This document shows, piece by piece, positions 5,927 through 62,672 of a DNA stretch of 64,000 nt. Origin of the DNA: Deltaproteobacteria bacterium (GTDB taxonomy: Bacteria > Desulfobacterota > Desulfobaccia > Desulfobaccales > 0-14-0-80-60-11). The first letter of the stretch is position 1, and every line of letters starts with the position of its first letter. The position numbers and the translations under genes were made by a program. The notes beneath the pieces are model-generated. The model was given only the letters and a program-made list of their open reading frames with translations, had not been told where the DNA came from and did not search any database. The stretch covers positions 1-64,000 of the forward strand of contig JAKAKP010000090.1 of assembly GCA_021813445.1 (NCBI GenBank). The letters run 5' to 3'.

Positions 5927-6090
5927 TATGCGCCTGGATCGGTTTTTGGGGATGCTAAGCCGGCATAAAGGTGCTTGGGGCCGGCTGCAGCGATTCAATC
6001 GAAATCATTTAATGTTACTATAACCTAAATAAATCAGGGCGGTAATTTAGAAAATCGTTAAATTGGGAGCCGGGGGCGGAGCCGCGACCT

Positions 6091-7617
6091 TCAAGGCTTC
6101 TGCTCCGGCCCGCCTGTACCCCTGGAGATGGCCCTGCGCAAGATAGCCATGGTCTCGCTTATCTCGTCCCGCTGAATTGCCCCGGAATATCTGGAGATGA
6201 TCACCAGAAACAGCGCCACTGCCAGGCTGCGCACTCCCAAATGCCCGGTTAGTTGCGGGAAGGGAGAAAGGTCGATGAGCAACATCAGGACCAGGTAGGC
6301 GAGGCCCAGGAAAACCAGGGGCTTGACCTCAAAGGGGATGAAGTATTGCCGTTGGTTGGTCAGGAATACCGCTCCGGTCAGGATTAACTCGATGCACACC
6401 GTGGCATAGGCTGCGCCCTGAATCCCCCAAGTCTTAATGAGGATGAAGTTGACGGGCAGACTGAGCAGGGCCGTGACCCCATAAGCCCAGATGAGATGGT
6501 AGGTCTTGCGGGCGATGAGCAGCCCCAGCCCGAAAGTGGTCCTGAGGCTGCCGATCCATAAGGCTAAAAGCAGCGGTCCCACCAGCTTGGAGGCGCCAAA
6601 ATATTTGGGACTGCCCACGATCAATTGCACCAGCGGGTAGGCGAACAGGAACATGCAGGTGGCCGCGGCCATGCCGATCAGGGCATAAACCCGGGACACC
6701 GCGGCATAGATGGAGTTGACTCCGGGCAGCTGCTGGATGGACAACGCATACGGGTAGTAGGTAATATTAAAGGTAATATCCAGAAAGAGGAGCACCGAGC
6801 AGATTTTGAGCCCTGCGGCATAAACCCCCGTGTGGCTCAGACCCACCAGGTTGACCAGGAAAATCCGGTTGATATTGGGCAGGAGCATATTGACGGCCCC
6901 GGCCAGGGCAAAGGGAATCCCCAAGGCCATCACGGCCCGGACGTCCCCCAGGGCAAAACCTGCAGCCAGATGCCGGGACACCGACCATAAGCCGATGACA
7001 GCAAACGCCGCGTAGGACAAAAGCATGCCCAGGAGGACCCCCTTAGCTCCCAATCCCAGGCTGATCACCAATATCAGGTTCAAGACGGCAACCAGCAAGG
7101 AGAGGCCCATGGTGATAAACGCGAACCGCACCGGCTCATGTTTCCATTTGTGCAGGTTCTGGGAAAACGCGAACAATCCCTGGAGGGGCAGCATCAGCAA
7201 CATCAGCACCGTCAATCCCGCCAGATTGGGTTGGCCCAGCAGGGCCTTGCTGATGGGCGTGGACCACAAGACCAGGCCTCCGGTCAGGAGGCAGGACCAG
7301 ATAAATTGAAAAAGCAGGTTGGAGGTGATGACCCGGCGCTGGCGCGCCTGATCTTCAATCTGGAAAATTAAGGCCAACCCCGAATCGATGCCCAGGATGG
7401 CGATAATCACCAGGATGGAATTGAAAGTGAGGAGGACGTCCACCTGGGCATACTCGGCCGGAGCCAGCATCCGGGTGTAGAGCGGCAGCAGGAAGAAGGA
7501 GATGGCCCGGGAAATGATGGTCCCCAGGCCGTAAATCAGGGTGTCCCCCGTGAGCCTTTTCAGGACTTCCCTGAGGTCCGGGGCCAGGGGCGGCGCGGCG
7601 TCTGTTTGATTAGACAA
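6091..7617 (-). CDS. Polysaccharide flippase, Wzx/MATE-like
   Basis: A 508-residue polytopic membrane protein with about 12-14 hydrophobic segments. It begins with the flippase-type amphipathic start LKRLTGDTLIYGLGTIISR and has the SFFLLPLYTRML segment typical of polysaccharide-biosynthesis exporters (MOP superfamily). The expected role is to flip undecaprenyl-linked repeat units to the periplasmic face before polymerisation. Its start overlaps the last 8 bases of the upstream glycosyltransferase gene, indicating coupled translation. Together with the Wzy-like protein at 23788-25086 it points to a Wzx/Wzy-dependent pathway. Confidence 0.88.
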   Translation of the reverse strand: MSNQTDAAPPLAPDLREVLKRLTGDTLIYGLGTIISRAISFFLLPLYTRMLAPAEYAQVDVLLTFNSILVIIAILGIDSGLALIFQIEDQARQRRVITSNLLFQFIWSCLLTGGLVLWSTPISKALLGQPNLAGLTVLMLLMLPLQGLFAFSQNLHKWKHEPVRFAFITMGLSLLVAVLNLILVISLGLGAKGVLLGMLLSYAAFAVIGLWSVSRHLAAGFALGDVRAVMALGIPFALAGAVNMLLPNINRIFLVNLVGLSHTGVYAAGLKICSVLLFLDITFNITYYPYALSIQQLPGVNSIYAAVSRVYALIGMAAATCMFLFAYPLVQLIVGSPKYFGASKLVGPLLLALWIGSLRTTFGLGLLIARKTYHLIWAYGVTALLSLPVNFILIKTWGIQGAAYATVCIELILTGAVFLTNQRQYFIPFEVKPLVFLGLAYLVLMLLIDLSPFPQLTGHLGVRSLAVALFLVIISRYSGAIQRDEISETMAILRRAISRGTGGPEQKP

Positions 7618-8866
7618 GGGTTGCCTTATTTACATGATGCGGCCTGCGGGCCAGGATGGATTCATAGAGCCCCAAATAGCGCCGGGCCACGACCTCACCC
7701 GCGGCATTTTGCTCCACCCAGGTGCGGCCCTGCAGCCCCAGCTCCCCCAGTTCCTCCCGGTTCCGGGCATAATGGTCCAGGGCCCGGAAAATTTCCTCCT
7801 CTGAGCTGGCGTTGATCACCGGCGGCAACTCCGGAAAAAGGGCCGTGGGAGGATAAAAATAATCGCTGTTGGACTCGGTCTGCATGAAGGTCAGCACCGG
7901 GGTGCCGCAGGCCATGGACTCCAGGGGAATGGACCCCAGCGCCCCGGCCACAAAATGGTCCGCGGTCAGATCGGCCAGGGCATACCAGTCCACCAGCTGA
8001 TGGCGGGGCAGGTGGTGGATCCATTTGACCGAGTCGCCGATCCCCAGACTGCTGATCAGATCCCGGGCCGGGGCTTCATCCGGGTAGCCCTGGGCCACCA
8101 GCACCAGGTAGAAGGCCTGGCCCTGGGCTTGGAGCCTGGCCAGGGCCCGGTAGAGCCGGTCGTTGCCTTTCTTGGAGTCGGTGTAACTGCTGGTAAAGGC
8201 CTGGCGGGTGGGGTGAAAAATGACCAGATCGTTTTCCCGGGCCTCTGGCAGCATCTGGGCCCGGAGCCGGGACCGCGCCCCGGCCTTGGGGGGAGAAAAG
8301 CGCCTGGTGTTAATGCCCAGGTGCAAATGCACAATGCGGTCTTCCAGATGCAGCCGATGCAATAAGCGGTAACCTGGTATCCACAGGCGGTTGTAAACTC
8401 CCAGCACTATGGCCGCGGCCTGGGCCATGGCCTTCCGGAAAAAGAGCGGTGCCAGGAGGTTGCGCAGGTCCAGGATCTTCCTGCCGAATTTATTGATAAA
8501 CAGCCAGGAATCATAAAAAGGCAGATGAAAGAAATCGCTGCCAAAGGGATGCCAGATAAAGGGCCGGCCGGTCTTGACCGCCAGCAGCAGGCCTTCGCCG
8601 TGGACATGGAGCAGGTCGCAGTCCGCCAGTTCCCGGAGCAAGGCCGGGGCCACTACATTTAGAGGCAAAAAAGGCTTCTCGGGATGCCGGTAGGTATGGA
8701 CCCAGGGGGCCGGCTCCTGTTCCAGTTCCGGGTCTTCGGATTGCGGCCAGCACTGGAGAGCGGCTTTGCCATTGTAGTAGAGATGCGCGTCCACCCCCAG
8801 CTCCCGGAGATACCGGGCCAGGACATAATGGTTATTACAGGTGTTGCCGATGAAGTTTACGCGCAT
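7610..8866 (-). CDS. Glycosyltransferase, GT-B fold (GT4-like)
   Basis: A 418-residue protein beginning MRVNFIGNTCNNHYVLARYL, with an HVHGEGLL segment and a C-terminal half carrying FHPTRQAF and the acceptor/donor segment GALGSIPLESMACGTPVLTF. The E-x7-E element of classical GT4 enzymes is modified here. Spacing to the upstream beta-propeller gene is 6 bases. It probably acts on the lipid-linked glycan on the cytoplasmic face. The family is clear; the sugar is not. Confidence 0.78.
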   Translation of the reverse strand: MRVNFIGNTCNNHYVLARYLRELGVDAHLYYNGKAALQCWPQSEDPELEQEPAPWVHTYRHPEKPFLPLNVVAPALLRELADCDLLHVHGEGLLLAVKTGRPFIWHPFGSDFFHLPFYDSWLFINKFGRKILDLRNLLAPLFFRKAMAQAAAIVLGVYNRLWIPGYRLLHRLHLEDRIVHLHLGINTRRFSPPKAGARSRLRAQMLPEARENDLVIFHPTRQAFTSSYTDSKKGNDRLYRALARLQAQGQAFYLVLVAQGYPDEAPARDLISSLGIGDSVKWIHHLPRHQLVDWYALADLTADHFVAGALGSIPLESMACGTPVLTFMQTESNSDYFYPPTALFPELPPVINASSEEEIFRALDHYARNREELGELGLQGRTWVEQNAAGEVVARRYLGLYESILARRPHHVNKATLV

Positions 8867-8872
8867 ACCGGC

Positions 8873-9949
8873 TCAGATAAAGACCGCGTGGTGGATGCAC
8901 CAGTTTTCATCCGCGGCCAGGACCTGGAAAAGCTGGCGTTCAACATCAAAGACGATGAGGCCGCGATTGGCGTCCAGGCCGATGAAGGTGGGGTCGGTCC
9001 AGGGCAGCACCGCCTGCAACCACTCATGCGCGGCCATGGCCGGAGGCTTGCCCGGCAGCCGGGCGGTTACCAATTTGTCCACTACCTGGAACCGGGCATC
9101 GGTGAGCCAGCACTCCCCCGCCATGGTATTGGTCACCAGCCAGCCCTGCCGGTGGGGCATGATGCCATGGGGCATGGCCTGCAAGCCCCCGATCACCACC
9201 CGCCAATCCCCGCTATCCTTATCAATTTCAATGACTTCGCCGGAGTGGCCCAGGGTGGCCAGGATCACGTCCGGCTGGCCGGGATGATAACTCGCGGAAT
9301 TGGGGTGGTTGGCGCGCTGGCTGGTCATTAAACCGTGCTCGCCGTACTCTGCCGGGTCAATGAGTTGGGCCGTGATTCCCTGGGCGCGCCAGGCCTCCTG
9401 TTGCTCCCGGTTCCGGGCCAGATAGACGCCGTCATGGTTGGGATTGAAGCCGTGTTCCCAGGCGTACCATTCCCAGCGAACCTCCCCGCTATCCAGGTCC
9501 ATTTCCAGGAGGCAGTCATAGCCCGAAGATACCACCAGAAACCGGCGGGTGTCGAGGTTGACGTCCAGGGAATGGAGAAAGGCAAAAAAAGGATGGCGGT
9601 ATTCCTGTAGGATCCGGCCCTGGAGGTCCAGTCGGAAAACCCGGTCGATTTCGCTGACCAGCAGCTCCCCGCCTCCCAGGGAAATCAAGCCCCGGGGCTC
9701 CCGGAATTCCCGGACCAGAAAGGCGTTGGCCGCGTTCAGGACCTGCCCCGGATGCAGCTCGATCCCCACCAGCAAGCCGGCGGCCACGGGCCTGGCGTCA
9801 ATGCGGCCCAGGCGGCCCCGCTCCTTGGCTTCGATGAGCCGGGTCCGCCGCTCCACCTGATCCAGGCTTTTCACCGTGAGCAGCAGGCGCGCCGGTCTCA
9901 CAACCTCCGCATTTCTGGCAAACTGGGACACATCCGTCAGCAGCATCAA
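8873..9949 (-). CDS. Beta-propeller protein of arylsulfotransferase-like architecture, function unknown
   Basis: A 358-residue protein made of repeated short beta-rich units ending in ID/LD-x-G turns (LDLQGRIL, MDLDSGEVRWEW, IDKDSGDW), so a six-bladed propeller is likely. The segment HPNSASYHPGQPD followed by GEVIEIDKDSG resembles the H-N-S ... I-D-x-x-T-G-E pattern of ASST-type propellers. I see no signal peptide, and the catalytic histidine set cannot be confirmed. An APS kinase in the same locus makes a sulfation role imaginable but unproven. It is packed 6 bases from both neighbours, within the operon. Confidence 0.6.
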   Translation of the reverse strand: MMLLTDVSQFARNAEVVRPARLLLTVKSLDQVERRTRLIEAKERGRLGRIDARPVAAGLLVGIELHPGQVLNAANAFLVREFREPRGLISLGGGELLVSEIDRVFRLDLQGRILQEYRHPFFAFLHSLDVNLDTRRFLVVSSGYDCLLEMDLDSGEVRWEWYAWEHGFNPNHDGVYLARNREQQEAWRAQGITAQLIDPAEYGEHGLMTSQRANHPNSASYHPGQPDVILATLGHSGEVIEIDKDSGDWRVVIGGLQAMPHGIMPHRQGWLVTNTMAGECWLTDARFQVVDKLVTARLPGKPPAMAAHEWLQAVLPWTDPTFIGLDANRGLIVFDVERQLFQVLAADENWCIHHAVFI

Positions 9950-9955
9950 GTAACC

Positions 9956-10777
9956 TCAGGGACCTTTCACTCCGGGAGGGTTGCTATGGTAATCGGCGGC
10001 CAACCGCCGGCTCAGGGCCTCGATCCACTCCCGCAACAGGGGCTCCGGCATGCCGCTGGGGAAGGCTCGGTGGTAGAGATGATTGTGCAAAAATTCCTGC
10101 TCCATCTCCCGGATCACCTGCCGCCAGGTCCGGGCCAAAACCTCCAGCATATCCGCGCCCCGGGCCAGCCACTGAAAGGGATGAAACAGTAATTGCAACC
10201 GGGGGTGCCCGGCCTTGATGATGTCTTCCAGTTCTTCAATGGTGTAACGCAGGTTGGAATCGGCAAAGTAAGCACAATGTTGGGTGAAGCGGTGGCCGTA
10301 CATATTAACCAGGCCGGGCACCGTGAAGTCCTCTGGCCGGTTAATCACCCAGGGCGCCAGGCTGGGGTTGTGCCAACTGAACACCGGGCTGAGTTCGGGG
10401 AGAAAGCCGCGGCTCGTCTCGAAATCGGCCCTTATTTTGGCGCTTAAGGACGCGGCATCAGTCGCAGCGGTATCCTCTAGAACATAATGGAGCCCCAGAT
10501 CGTGTCCCAATTGCTGGATTTCAATGACTTTTGCGAGACCTGGATAAGTCAGCAAATTATACAGGGGGGAACGCAATTGGAAGCAAAAGGTGGCCTGCGC
10601 GCCCAGGTCCGCATCGATCTGGGCGAATTCCCTGGCCCAACCCACAGAATAGTCGATGTCATGGCGGAGATAAACGACCTTGCCCGCGGTTTCCTGGTTT
10701 TCGGTAAAGCGTCCCCAACGGTAGCCTTCGGCCCGTATTAACTCCAGCAGCCCGCGGTAAGCTTCTACTGTGTACAT
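9956..10777 (-). CDS. Polysaccharide deacetylase-like protein (NodB fold)
   Basis: A 273-residue protein with VYLRHDIDYSVGWAREFAQ near residue 35. RHDID is the metal-site start of a polysaccharide-deacetylase-like barrel, followed by ATFCFQLRS and GHDLGLHY (second histidine pair). C-terminal HPFQW is consistent with a further barrel motif. Such proteins in glycan loci are often annotated WbmS-like or deacetylase-like without proven chemistry. It lies upstream of the beta-propeller gene by 6 bases. The start ATG at 10777 (MYTVEAYRGLLELI) is the only sensible one. Confidence 0.65.
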   Translation of the reverse strand: MYTVEAYRGLLELIRAEGYRWGRFTENQETAGKVVYLRHDIDYSVGWAREFAQIDADLGAQATFCFQLRSPLYNLLTYPGLAKVIEIQQLGHDLGLHYVLEDTAATDAASLSAKIRADFETSRGFLPELSPVFSWHNPSLAPWVINRPEDFTVPGLVNMYGHRFTQHCAYFADSNLRYTIEELEDIIKAGHPRLQLLFHPFQWLARGADMLEVLARTWRQVIREMEQEFLHNHLYHRAFPSGMPEPLLREWIEALSRRLAADYHSNPPGVKGP

Positions 10778-22649: not shown

Positions 22650-23480
22650 TTAGTTGGACGAGGCATTTGATTCAGGTGTCTTGGCCGGCTCCAAAGGCTG
22701 GCGCTGCGGCAGCCCCCGATATTTCCAGATAAATTTCCCCAGGCTGACCAGATGGTACCGCAAAAACCGCCAGCGGCGCTGGCTGTCTCTCTGGCTATGA
22801 TGCCGGAAAAGCACCTCCGGATAAGAGACCACAGCCAAGCCGGCCTGCCAGAGGCGGTAACAAAGATCCACCTCCTCCATATAAAGAAAGAATCTCTCAT
22901 CGAATGCGGGAGCTCCCCAAAACGCAGCCACCCGGTAAAACATAGCCGCGCCATAGCCCCAGTCCACCTCCAGGGGCCGGTCGCCCGGAGCATCCAATAA
23001 CAGGTGTTCCCGATAGGGACCGGCAAAGAAGCGGCGAAAGAAGCCGATTCTGGAGGCCAAAAGGGTCTTCCAGTTGTAAAACTCCCGGCAGGCCAAAATA
23101 GATTGCCCTTCAAAGGTCACGGAGCTGGGGATGAGACAGCCCACCCGGGGGTGTGCGCTCAGGTAGGCCAGGGCCTCCGCCACCTTTGCCGGGGTTGCCA
23201 GGACCAGATCGGGATTGCATAGTAAGGCCACCGCGTTCTTCTCGCCAACCTCCCGCAGTCCCCGGTTCAAACCCGCGCCATACCCGGCGTTCTTCTGATT
23301 GATGACCTGTAAGGGGAAGGGGGCGGTTAAGGCCGCCAGACTCTCTTCCGGTGAATGGTTAACGATTATCAGCCGTTTCAAAAAAGGCAGAGGCGCCAGG
23401 GAGGCAATAAAATCCGGCAGATAAGACCCGGCATGGTAATTTACCGCAATGACGTAGAAGGGGGGCAAATTGTTCATCAT
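22650..23480 (-). CDS. Glycosyltransferase family 2, rhamnosyltransferase-like
   Basis: A GT-A fold enzyme of about 276 residues. NAGYGAGLNRGL is the donor-base motif, LLCNPDLV is the D-x-D equivalent (NPD), VDWGYGAAMFYR forms the acceptor segment, and FDERFFLYMEEVDLCYRLW carries the catalytic E-D region. HHSQRDSQRR matches WbbL-like rhamnosyltransferases. The start ATG at 23480 (or the adjacent ATG at 23477) is preferred. The frame extends to 23495, but those codons translate a short direct repeat. Confidence 0.85.
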   Translation of the reverse strand: MMNNLPPFYVIAVNYHAGSYLPDFIASLAPLPFLKRLIIVNHSPEESLAALTAPFPLQVINQKNAGYGAGLNRGLREVGEKNAVALLCNPDLVLATPAKVAEALAYLSAHPRVGCLIPSSVTFEGQSILACREFYNWKTLLASRIGFFRRFFAGPYREHLLLDAPGDRPLEVDWGYGAAMFYRVAAFWGAPAFDERFFLYMEEVDLCYRLWQAGLAVVSYPEVLFRHHSQRDSQRRWRFLRYHLVSLGKFIWKYRGLPQRQPLEPAKTPESNASSN

Positions 23481-23515
23481 AAGTTCAAAGTTCAAAGTTC
23501 AAGGTTCGAGGTTAA
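23481..23515. repeat. Short direct repeats of the 'AAGTTCAAAGTTCAAGG' kind
   Basis: A low-complexity tandem of AGTTCAAAG/AGTTCAAGG units immediately upstream of the GT2 gene. Complementary units (TTGGAACTTGGAACCTGG) occur at 23795-23820 in the last codons of the Wzy-like gene, and more copies are at 62543-62575 and 62638-62672. The gap 23496-23787 holds no gene; it also contains two hairpins listed separately. Confidence 0.7.
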
Positions 23516-26183: not shown

Positions 26184-26527
26184 TTATTCCCCTTCAAGTT
26201 TCAGTATTCGCTCTATCTTCCGGTGGAGTTCTGGAATCTTATTTTGAATGACATCCCAAACAATATCGTAGTCAACCCCGAAGTAGTCATGAATGAGGCG
26301 ATCCCTCATTCCTGCTAGAGAACGCCAATTTATCTCAGGATATTTCTGTTTTAACTCACTAGGAATTTTCTTCGAGGCCTCGCCAATGATCTCTATGCTG
26401 CGCACATAAGCCCGCTTCAAGGTCTCGCTGCCCATGATCGATCTTTGCTCAAACCCCGGCTGTCTGAGATCAGATACCCGGTTTCATCGAGGATATGGCG
26501 CAGATACTCAAGCGGCAAGAGCGGCAT
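26184..26527 (-). pseudogene. hepT: HepT-like RNase toxin (DUF86), frameshifted
   Basis: HepT is a HEPN-domain RNase whose partner MntA adenylylates it. Here the N-terminal frame starts at ATG 26527 ([19 protein letters not shown]), overlapping the 3' end of mntA by 20 bases, and reads to GLSKDRS. The rest is in another frame from 26435 ([19 protein letters not shown]) to the stop at 26184. Joined, they give a normal HepT of about 113 residues. The RNase motif R-x4-H with the target tyrosine is intact (RDRLIHDYF). The one- or two-base shift lies about 26436-26448. Either the toxin is dead or the assembly has an indel. Confidence 0.75.
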
Positions 26528-26828
26528 ATTCCACCTCTTTTAAAATATGCGGCCCGATATAAGGACTGAGGGATTCCATTGTCACCAGTTCAATTCTGTG
26601 CTGCAAAATCTCCTCTAGCAGAAAGGATAGTTCCATAAAGGCATCAAAGGTTTTCTGTCCCGCCTCAAATTCCACCAGCAGATCAATGTCGCTGCCAGAA
26701 TATTGTTCTCCGCGCACGTATGAGCCAAATAGCCCGATCCTCCTTACTCCAAGGGCCTTGAGGCGGTCGCGGTTTTGGTGCAGGGTCTTCAATACGTCCT
26801 GTTTGGTTTTGATGGAAGTCCTCCCCAT
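26508..26828 (-). CDS. mntA: MntA-like nucleotidyltransferase antitoxin
   Basis: A minimal nucleotidyltransferase of about 106 residues. The signature GSYVRGEQYSGSDIDLLVE fits G-S-x10-D-x-D exactly, the motif MntA needs to transfer AMP to the HepT tyrosine. The start is ATG 26828 (MGRTSIKTKQDVL), because AAGGAG lies 6 bases upstream; the reading frame extends to 26885 without a ribosome site. The hepT reading frame overlaps its end. The gap 26829-27004 shows no gene. Confidence 0.85.
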   Translation of the reverse strand: MGRTSIKTKQDVLKTLHQNRDRLKALGVRRIGLFGSYVRGEQYSGSDIDLLVEFEAGQKTFDAFMELSFLLEEILQHRIELVTMESLSPYIGPHILKEVEYAALAA

Positions 26829-27004
26829 CAGAAGCTCCTTATTACCTCGCCTTATGGTGCAGTTATGATAACATTTTTTGGCCAATTCAGGGCAAAAACG
26901 CTCTTCGCCATGCCCGGAGGGGTTTTTGTACTATCCGGTGATAAGACAGAAAGGTCGAAAACCGTCAACGAAAGGGCCCCGAGACCTAAACCTTAAGCTT
27001 TGAA

Positions 27005-28723: not shown

Positions 28724-28878
28724 GTTGGCTAGTGACCTCGGAAAAATTGGTTTTTCTAGGGGGGCCTTATCCCCCCAGCCCCTGACCTCTCTCCCAAAAA
28801 ATTTCCAACACCATATTCTTAAAATGAAAGAGGCACAAGGATATCTTAGGTAGTATATCAGGTTAAAAACGGGAAAAT

Positions 28879-28907
28879 AAAAAAAGCGGCCTTGAGGCCG
28901 CTCTTTT
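28879..28907 (-). terminator. Intrinsic terminator of the Ntn-hydrolase/small-ORF pair
   Basis: A perfect 7-base-pair stem AGCGGCC / GGCCGCT with a 4-base loop. On the minus strand it is followed by seven T residues, and it is placed about 20 bases after the stop at 28925. A shorter T-run lies on the plus side, so it could work in both directions. The rest of 28724-28878 shows no gene. Confidence 0.85.
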
Positions 28908-28924
28908 ACCGGTTCAAAGAAATC

Positions 28925-29122
28925 TCACGTCTGTTTTGGGTTCACATATTTCATTCGATACCAACGAGCCGCAAGATGGCGGTATTGTGGGTCAAAAAAT
29001 GAATAAGGGCATTCTTCCTCAAATTCATTTTTACCTCTGGAGGCGGATTCTCGCCCTCTAAAATTGTACATGTCTTCCAAATAACGCTTTACATCAAAGT
29101 TTTCATCCTGTGGGCTTTGCAT
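28925..29122 (-). CDS. Small protein overlapping the Ntn-hydrolase gene, function unknown
   Basis: A 65-residue acidic and aromatic protein (MQSPQDENFDVKRYLEDMYN at the start, PQYRHLAARWYRMKYVN near the end). I do not recognise a family. Its ATG at 29122 overlaps the last 20 bases of the proteasome-like gene in another frame, so the two are translationally coupled. An upstream in-frame extension to 29188 lies wholly inside the neighbour and is unlikely to be used. It could be a substrate, regulator or partner of the Ntn-hydrolase. A terminator follows. Confidence 0.6.
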   Translation of the reverse strand: MQSPQDENFDVKRYLEDMYNFRGRESASRGKNEFEEECPYSFFDPQYRHLAARWYRMKYVNPKQT

Positions 29123-29954
29123 CGCCTTCTCCCTTTTCTGCTTCTGCCTCTGCTTGAGAGAGCAAACCTGCCAACAATTGGCTTGCATTCATTATCTCTT
29201 GTTGGCGTGGTTGAGTTACCTGGTTATATATATCACTTAAAGCACTTACCATTTCCGGAGTAATATGAATGACTTGCCCTTCTCTAACCATCGCCATGTC
29301 AGTTTCTTTGCCAACACCTGGGGCGACTTCAGAGGCTTTTTTAGCAGCATAGACAACATTAAGGCAATCTATGGTGGTACAGGAAATACTATATCTTTGT
29401 GCTATAAATGTCTGAAAAGCGTGAAGCTGACCCACCCCTATGGCATGGAACCCTATGAAGTCATAGCAGTTTGCCATGCCTGGATTAAAAATATGATAAA
29501 TATGGGCACCAGTGGAGTCAAGACCAGCGATCAGAAGCTCTATCCCATAATTAAAGTTAGCCATTTCTTGATCTAGATACCCAAAAATATCCCTAGGGAA
29601 GATGCCCAGTCCCTTATCGTAAAATGTTTGGGAGTTGATGGTGCGCGGTTTCAAAATGCGTTCTTCGGCATTTGCAATTCTATGAAACTGATACCAGTGC
29701 TTTACGATGTCCACAATCTGTTCAATAGATGGGGAGCGCCTCTGGTCGCATATGGTGAGTTTGCTCTTTGGTATGACCTCGATGGGCTTTAAGGCATCGC
29801 CGGCGGTCATGGCAATACAATATGGGGCAAGGTGATGGATTTTTGACCTTGTGTGCTCAAATTCTATGGGAGGGTATTGGGCAGTGACCATACGATCCGA
29901 TGCCACAATCGCTGTCTTACCATCCTCACAGATCGCCGAGATGCAAACCGTCAT
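29103..29954 (-). CDS. Proteasome-like Ntn-hydrolase superfamily protein
   Basis: A 283-residue protein starting MTVCISAICEDGKTAIVASD. Removal of Met1 would expose Thr2. Asp20 in ASDRMVT and Lys38 in TRSKIHHL stand where the Asp17 and Lys33 of the proteasome beta catalytic set stand. GIELLIAGLDSTGAHIYHI resembles the central beta strands. No propeptide is present. It is a stand-alone bacterial member (not HslV: no ATPase gene beside it). The C-terminal about 60 residues are helical and rich in Ala and Glu (LLSQAEAEAEKGEG). The gene and its flanks are more A/T-rich than the neighbours. Peptidase activity is inferred, not shown. Confidence 0.72.
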   Translation of the reverse strand: MTVCISAICEDGKTAIVASDRMVTAQYPPIEFEHTRSKIHHLAPYCIAMTAGDALKPIEVIPKSKLTICDQRRSPSIEQIVDIVKHWYQFHRIANAEERILKPRTINSQTFYDKGLGIFPRDIFGYLDQEMANFNYGIELLIAGLDSTGAHIYHIFNPGMANCYDFIGFHAIGVGQLHAFQTFIAQRYSISCTTIDCLNVVYAAKKASEVAPGVGKETDMAMVREGQVIHITPEMVSALSDIYNQVTQPRQQEIMNASQLLAGLLSQAEAEAEKGEGDAKPTG

Positions 29955-30142
29955 AGCTGTGCCCCACGAGCAATCTTATACGGAGCGCCCCAAAGAGCCT
30001 TTAATATACTTGAGCAAATGTTATGCCACCTTAAAAAACTATAATAAATATTTGTGAAAATATCCACGAATAATTTTTTCAAATCTTTTAACACCTTCCA
30101 TAACCTCATGTCAATATAAGAGATTAATTCTTAATCCCTAAT

Positions 30143-30158
30143 GGGAACATTTGTTCCC
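30143..30158. promoter_or_regulatory. Perfect palindrome GGGAACA-TT-TGTTCCC
   Basis: Seven-base arms with a two-base centre in the A/T-rich gap 29955-30235, which has no visible gene. The inner part fits GAAC-N4-GTTC, the form of LexA boxes in some bacteria, but it is about 190 bases upstream of the nearest start (29954), so an operator role is uncertain. Confidence 0.3.
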
Positions 30159-30235
30159 TAGATGGGGAATTTCTTCTATATCTAAATCGGTTAGTTTAGT
30201 AAAGATCAATAGAGACTCATGTCGATGAAACCTTT

Positions 30236-62542: not shown

Positions 62543-62672
62543 ATAGTTCAAAGTCCAGAGTTCAAGGTTCAAGGTTGGGCCTGGTGAGTTACAAAGTATG
62601 ACTTACATCTGAAATGGGAAGCTACGATTTCTTTTCTAACTTTGAACTTTGAACCTTGAACCTTGAACTTGT
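62543..62672. repeat. Pair of facing AGTTCAAGGTTCAAGG repeats
   Basis: AGTTCAAAGTCCAGAGTTC units at 62543-62575 face TTTGAACTTTGAACCTTG at 62638-62672, so the 146-base gap forms a loose inverted repeat. It is the same family as 23481-23515. Confidence 0.65.

Follow-up and report, generated by a model that had tools for sequence, protein, structure and literature searches.

A proteasome-like gene with an overlapping small gene

The stretch of DNA analysed here (the window, 64,000 nucleotides of contig JAKAKP010000090.1 from a Deltaproteobacteria bacterium) carries on its reverse strand a gene for a proteasome-like threonine Ntn-hydrolase, whose product begins MTVCISAICEDG and whose 3' end runs into a second, much smaller gene (Table 1). 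The first-pass annotation had described this overlapping 65-residue gene with the right coordinates. A longer mechanical ORF opens at 29188 and would give 87 residues, and we take the ATG at 29122 as the start because GGGAG lies 7-11 nt upstream of it and because the homologue in the nearest relative begins at a comparable place. The small protein, hereafter the partner, belongs to no Pfam family above cut-off, and a model built from two sequences predicts helices at 11-22 and 48-59 with low confidence (pLDDT 62.8). The terminator that had been assigned to the pair is recovered by pattern, and the A/T-rich setting is borne out, at 44% G+C for the pair against 57% for the window. Promoter-like sites in the region are not in excess (4 found, against a mean of 3.2 in shuffles), and the window contains no Rfam match.

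Table 1. Features of the two-gene unit and its site, in window coordinates except where residues are named
Feature	Coordinates	Strand	Remarks
Proteasome-like threonine Ntn-hydrolase gene	29103..29954	(-)	283 aa, ATG start
Ntn-hydrolase features			Thr2, Asp20, Lys38; helical insert, residues 108-132; long C-terminal helix, residues 233-275
Partner gene	28925..29122	(-)	65 aa; overlaps 3' end of Ntn gene by 20 nt
Shine-Dalgarno-like GGGAG of partner gene	29129..29133	(-)	Within Ntn gene; from sequence
Intrinsic terminator after the pair	28880..28907	(-)	12-pair stem and T run; pattern-based
Promoter-like site, weak	30038..30066	(-)	9 of 12
Variable segment between adenine deaminase and DUF6115 genes	28746..30235	.	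From blastn of flanks, ORFs and Pfam; boundaries are the end of flank similarity, approximate

Fold and catalytic residues of the enzyme

Computation shows both the fold and the catalytic residues of the enzyme. PF00227 (Proteasome) matches the 283-residue protein at 25.9 bits, over its cut-off of 22.4 (E 9e-6), and an AlphaFold2 model built with 20 sequences (mean pLDDT 92.6, pTM 0.85) superposes on 20S chains, so that the initial reading of a proteasome-like Ntn-hydrolase stands. When the same family was searched against the whole genome at E<=0.001, the window gene was missing from the matches, and we therefore regard the enzyme as a divergent member of PF00227. All of the best 50 VIA-align matches listed are 20S proteasome chains (Z 23.9-24.7), led by 6bdf_1 of T. 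acidophilum (Z 24.7 over 195 residues, rmsd 2.0, 17% identity), a beta subunit judging by its length, and the matches listed by Foldseek are likewise 20S chains. Anbu, HslV and BPH are not among the 50 structure matches listed by Foldseek and VIA-align, which does not exclude them.

The model combines the core strands and helices (H1 at 57-69, H2 at 77-104) with an extra helix pair, 108-118 and 121-132, set between the helix 77-104 and strand E138-146. Helices 176-185 and 194-208 are separated by eight residues, and the C-terminal helix extends over 43 residues. In most of the listed 20S chains, VIA-align superposes residue 2 of the model on residue 1, in keeping with the catalytic set of Thr2, Asp20 and Lys38 that had been proposed from the sequence. 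Across 29 aligned rows, the window counted, Thr2 is kept in 28 and Asp20 and Lys38 in every one; Gly173, Gly175, Lys205 and Gly215 are equally invariant, Glu209 is kept in 28 rows and Gly52 in 27. The first-pass annotation had named loss of Thr2 in homologues as evidence that would count against it, and such loss is confined to one row, L032 (around 5960-6888), which has Ala at this position in an otherwise intact protein and is possibly an inactive member. Threonine amidohydrolase activity is the default expectation for Ntn-hydrolases with such residues. Since the threonine is residue 2, removal of Met1 would expose it, and autoprocessing would be unneeded.

Relation to known proteasome-like systems

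Which of the known systems does this enzyme resemble? Fuchs, Alva and Lupas (2021, PMC8665760) set out 22 types of proteasome-like protein other than HslV, Anbu, BPH and connectase, and the passages of their paper used here describe one of them, PHI (proteasome homologue with helical insertion), as present in bacteria and archaea; its insertion behind helices H1/H2 is longer, and some of its members end in a coiled coil. The same passages assign propeptides to proteasome beta and HslV and to no other homologue. It is the PHI description that the enzyme fits best, a comparison made by description and not by sequence: it has the proteasome-like core with catalytic residues, the helical insertion after H1/H2 (108-118 and 121-132 in the model) and no propeptide. 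It differs in its translationally coupled partner: according to these passages, neither gene neighbourhood nor co-occurrence hinted at a function for any of the new types. PMI-3 and PMI-4, as described there, share the insertion after H1/H2, and PMI-4 further occurs in phages, as does at least one distant relative of our enzyme (L018, beside a terminase small subunit gene); however, both PMI types have an extra insertion between H3 and H4, which the enzyme model lacks between its helices 176-185 and 194-208. Anbu, a sequence family of its own with a split-ring particle, is described with a long C-terminal helix too (PMC8665760), a resemblance by description only.

The better-known members of the family fit less well. 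The 20S beta subunit shares the fold and the equivalents of Thr1, Asp17 and Lys33, but differs in its low identity (17%), in lacking the extra helices and in the absence of an alpha gene from the own-genome PF00227 search. The profile comparison with HslV and 20S beta that had been suggested as a check sets both aside: the archaeal proteasome models of NCBIfam fall far below their cut-offs (TIGR03634, the 20S beta equivalog, scores 19.6 against 224 bits) and no alpha-subunit gene was found, and HslV is rejected in that no HslV model is among the NCBIfam matches listed at E<=10 and no hslU is among the 26 other window ORFs scanned. Connectase, in the passages of PMC8665760, is marked by an insert of two helices separating strands 3 and 4 and by the absence of H1/H2; in the model of our enzyme, H1/H2 are present and strands E22-26 and E29-33 are just two residues apart.

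The enzyme had also been called stand-alone, and as far as the scan reaches we agree: none of the 26 other window ORFs scanned is HslU, a Clp-type ATPase or a proteasome ATPase, the sole marginal AAA match among them being an SRP54-type GTPase. Elsewhere in the genome, which is 97% complete, a true HslV is encoded on contig C31 (HslV model, 269-276 bits), and contig C128 encodes a second proteasome-like protein (L005:979-1683 (-), 234 aa, PF00227 E 3e-12) that matches beta-type models and falls below all NCBIfam cut-offs. The ORF adjoining the C128 gene is presumably a topoisomerase I gene. As the own-genome PF00227 matches lie only on C31 and C128, there is no 20S alpha gene among them.

The Pup-proteasome system of actinobacteria invites comparison as well. 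Pup has about 64 residues and a C-terminus of Gly-Gly-Gln/Glu, and its gene lies next to those of the proteasome. Here, too, a small protein of similar size is encoded beside a proteasome-type gene; however, the small gene lies downstream and its product has no Gly-Gly-Gln/Glu C-terminus. A Pup system was rejected on the absence of its ligase: PafA (PF03136) is absent from the genome, and in a set of 14 control genomes the same search found it in Corynebacterium glutamicum.

The pair in the nearest relative

The nearest relative of the enzyme, 59% identical, comes from another genus of the same family (L025/L002, contig JAPLJC010000009.1). A 65-residue partner gene overlaps the enzyme gene there as well, by 11 nt, and BLASTP aligns the two partners at 49% identity over 55 positions (E 7e-21), or 45% across the whole length. 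Both contain the stretch PYSFFD..YR.LA.RWY.MKY.NP. Over 61 codons, the two partner genes differ at codon positions 1, 2 and 3 by 26, 14 and 27 changes, and since the fewest fall at position 2, the partner behaves like a coding gene. Both copies have a Shine-Dalgarno-like motif before the partner gene, and 3' of the L025 partner stands a GCGGCC/GGCCGC hairpin with a T run, similar to the window terminator. The 65-residue partner gene is real, and its coupling to the enzyme is conserved in two species. Absence of the small ORF from all relatives, also named in the first-pass annotation as evidence against it, did not come up: the nearest relative has it, although no other relative has a homologous one.

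Co-occurrence of the small protein with the enzyme, proposed as a further check, was followed in 395 genomes of the phylum. With a profile built from both partners, 2 of them reach E<=1e-3, at 2e-41 and 3e-40, and the match that follows is at 0.003; these 2 are the genomes that carry the close enzyme subfamily, a co-occurrence of 2/2 that is a small number. The third of the 395 with an enzyme match, G241 (L003, enzyme 23% identical), is absent from the partner matches. A split-off C-terminal helix of the enzyme was considered as the source of the small protein and rejected, since the window enzyme retains that helix in its model. No description of a partner protein for such an enzyme was found in the search listings of the literature, and the passages of PMC13022661 checked for one describe none.

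Could the small protein be a substrate? On this account it would be cleaved, or joined in connectase fashion to another protein, and the pair would constitute a tag-and-enzyme system, which would suit a small protein that is co-translated with a threonine Ntn enzyme. The proteasome-like family is known to include a specific ligase, connectase (PMC8665760, in the passages used here), and in one distant relative, G885 (L121), Prok-E2_E and ThiF (E1-like) genes adjoin the enzyme gene. We nevertheless consider a tag or substrate unlikely: the two partners end in NPKQT (window) and NPLEMQA (L025) and share no tag-like C-terminus, the genome is without a Pup ligase, the E2/E1 neighbour is found at one locus only, and the model lacks the insert that connectase has after strand 3, ahead of strand 4.

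A site of gene turnover

The adenine deaminase flank (to about 28745) and the DUF6115 flank (from 30236) of the pair are conserved in the four genus-mates that hold both, G001, G002, G003 and G006. The same site spans 373 bp in G002 and 293 bp in G003, and is occupied by a hemerythrin gene in G001 and by hemerythrin and DnaJ-hemerythrin genes in G006; in the window it measures about 1.5 kb, holds the pair and has 42% G+C. The hemerythrin genes found at this intergenic spot lie at L100:4656-5914 and L092:640-1143, one of them with a DnaJ fusion. The downstream flanking genes are flagellar (FliM, FliP, FlhB, FlhA and others), and the intergenic spot at the end of this flagellar cluster is a site of gene turnover.

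Occurrence of the pair is patchy and its location variable. The enzyme is found in 1/7 genomes of the genus and 2/22 of the family, and in L025 the pair occupies a different site, flanked by an IS1-like and a DDE transposase and near a GmrSD gene. We regard the pair as cargo that moves, because of the variable site in genus-mates, the patchy occurrence and the other location in the 59% identical relative. The earlier suggestion of a small mobile unit thus holds in part. In its favour are the variation of the segment among genus-mates and the transposases on either side of the pair in the nearest relative; against it, the window copy comes without a transposase inside its conserved flanks and shows no clear repeats at its ends.

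The same features, an overlapping two-gene unit of patchy distribution and variable location, could suggest a toxin-antitoxin-like or defence pair, in which the enzyme would be harmful, or would act on invaders, and the small protein would restrain it. Some neighbours point the same way, namely MNT/HepT genes (window and L028), Fic and DUF6941 (L123) and GmrSD and transposase genes (L105). However, MNT/HepT pairs and transposases are common, the window MNT/HepT genes lie beyond adenine deaminase, the small ORF is missing in many relatives, and PADLOC, run on six proteins at E<=1, matches none of them, the enzyme and the partner included; a pair of this kind seems to us distinctly improbable. 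Neither plasmids nor phages yielded a match to the enzyme, and the relatives L026 and L006 had no plasmid match and L006 no phage match; for the partner, plasmids gave nothing and phages a single match, weak and partial (E 0.3). Viral-contig scans queried with the window enzyme and with the partner returned no relative, and the single PHROGs match (E 0.28) covers a portion of the C-terminal helix.

Small ORFs in the wider enzyme family

More distant relatives of the enzyme, about 22-36% identical where measured, occur in bacterial and archaeal genomes and on viral contigs, and a scan of genome contigs recovered at least 10 loci. The alignment and tree of 29 rows are non-redundant, with the window included. 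Left out of them were repeats of a contig or protein (L001, L002, L007, L011, L012, L014, L015, L017, L020, L021, L023, L024, L035-L041, L106, L108, L110-L114), incomplete or fragment matches (L045, L046, L049, L054) and weak matches resembling 20S or other proteasome-like proteins (L042, L047, L048, L050, L051, L055-L089 except L071 and L072, L107).

We counted small ORFs starting within 25 nt of the enzyme stop, and compared them with control genes, which are ORFs of at least 150 aa taken by greedy choice from the same loci and from genus-mate regions, some of them possibly false. A first count, of ORFs of 40-90 aa with any start, gave 10/22 family rows against 39/174 control genes. With all rows the same definition gives 13/29 against 55/242 (Fisher p 0.012), a range of 55-80 aa with any start gives 9/29 against 25/242 (p 0.004), and the latter range with ATG only gives 8/29 against 9/242 (p 8e-5), p values that are not clean probabilities, as the thresholds were set post hoc and the rows are related. 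The window clade of seven rows (support 82/84, drawn open) has a small ORF in six, L072 being without. The clade whose members have long C-terminal tails counts eight rows: six are without a small ORF, and the other two have ORFs of 44 aa and, GTG-started, of 75 aa. Altogether, 16/29 rows are without an ORF of 40-90 aa within this distance, including L072, L071 and L043, which are near the window in the tree.

The small proteins themselves are diverse. The partners of the window and L025 have no detectable homology to those of L016, L028, L044 and L052 (hhalign probability 0.05%); L016 and L028 match weakly (E 4e-5 in one comparison), and L044 and L016 barely at all (0.013). A small companion at the 3' end of the enzyme gene thus recurs in part of the family and is not one conserved protein family, and because 16/29 rows have no small ORF and those of other rows, L025 apart, have no detectable homology to the window partner, the enzyme type as a whole may not need a partner.

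Overlapping genes are common in bacteria, and the unrelated small ORFs, or none, that distant relatives have at this place would also agree with a separate accessory gene that shares the transcript by chance, its product having no action on the enzyme. We rate this as decidedly unlikely, given the overlap kept in both close-subfamily copies at different genomic locations, the 2/2 co-occurrence in 395 genomes and the small ATG ORFs, which are more frequent here than at control genes, at thresholds set post hoc.

Proposed function of the pair

The reading that we favour, and to which we give about an even chance, is an accessory two-gene unit in which a propeptide-free threonine hydrolase is controlled by a dedicated small partner. 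Hydrolase activity, oligomeric state, partner role and substrate are inferred here. In the proposed scheme, methionine aminopeptidase would remove Met1 and so expose Thr2, which would attack amide bonds with the assistance of Asp20 and Lys38, the region of Gly52 providing a putative oxyanion site. Because of the helical insert and the long C-terminal helix, a layout of PHI type, the enzyme is unlikely to assemble into a degradation barrel capped by an ATPase, and probably acts instead on a few, specific targets. Fuchs et al., in the passages of PMC8665760 used here, argue from the PHI and PMI insertions against a plain ring and leave another orientation open; by that argument the insertion of our enzyme, too, speaks against such a ring.

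Translation of the overlapping second gene would yield a small, probably helical protein made in step with the enzyme. From the coupling and the co-occurrence we suggest that this protein binds and controls the enzyme, most likely as a dedicated binding partner that governs its activity or its access to targets, and the unit as a whole would come and go as cargo. The enzyme is of a known, uncharacterised type, and what is new is its coupled partner, the first protein to test as a regulator or substrate of one such enzyme. A bolder proposal, which we regard as a long shot, is a minimal two-gene cleavage or ligation system, in which the enzyme would be paired with a co-translated small substrate or tag unrelated to Pup and ubiquitin, different lineages having independently acquired diverse small proteins at this 3' position.

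Several further observations concern the surroundings of the enzyme genes. HepT-like and nucleotidyltransferase (MNT/HepT-type) genes lie in the window at 26184-26885, and an MNT/HepT-type pair is also present at L028, downstream of the enzyme. On the viral contig L018, the distant relative (7118-8080) stands directly upstream of the phage terminase small subunit gene (PF03592), and a relative at L124:9604-10818 has a C-terminal DUF6717 domain fusion. At L123:5206-7224 (G751, of the phylum of a Thorarchaeota record), the enzyme gene is followed on the same strand by a 65-aa ORF, DUF6941, a 67-aa ORF and Fic. The enzyme gene of G885 occupies 9368-10171 (+) of L121, with the adjoining Prok-E2_E and ThiF genes at 6848-8627 (-) on the opposite strand; this genome is apparently archaeal, because its phylum has 20S subunit matches in most genomes. 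Finally, short TTGAACCTTGAACCTTGAAC-type repeats occur in the window at 62640-62670 and 23480-23513, and also match between-gene DNA of a genus-mate.
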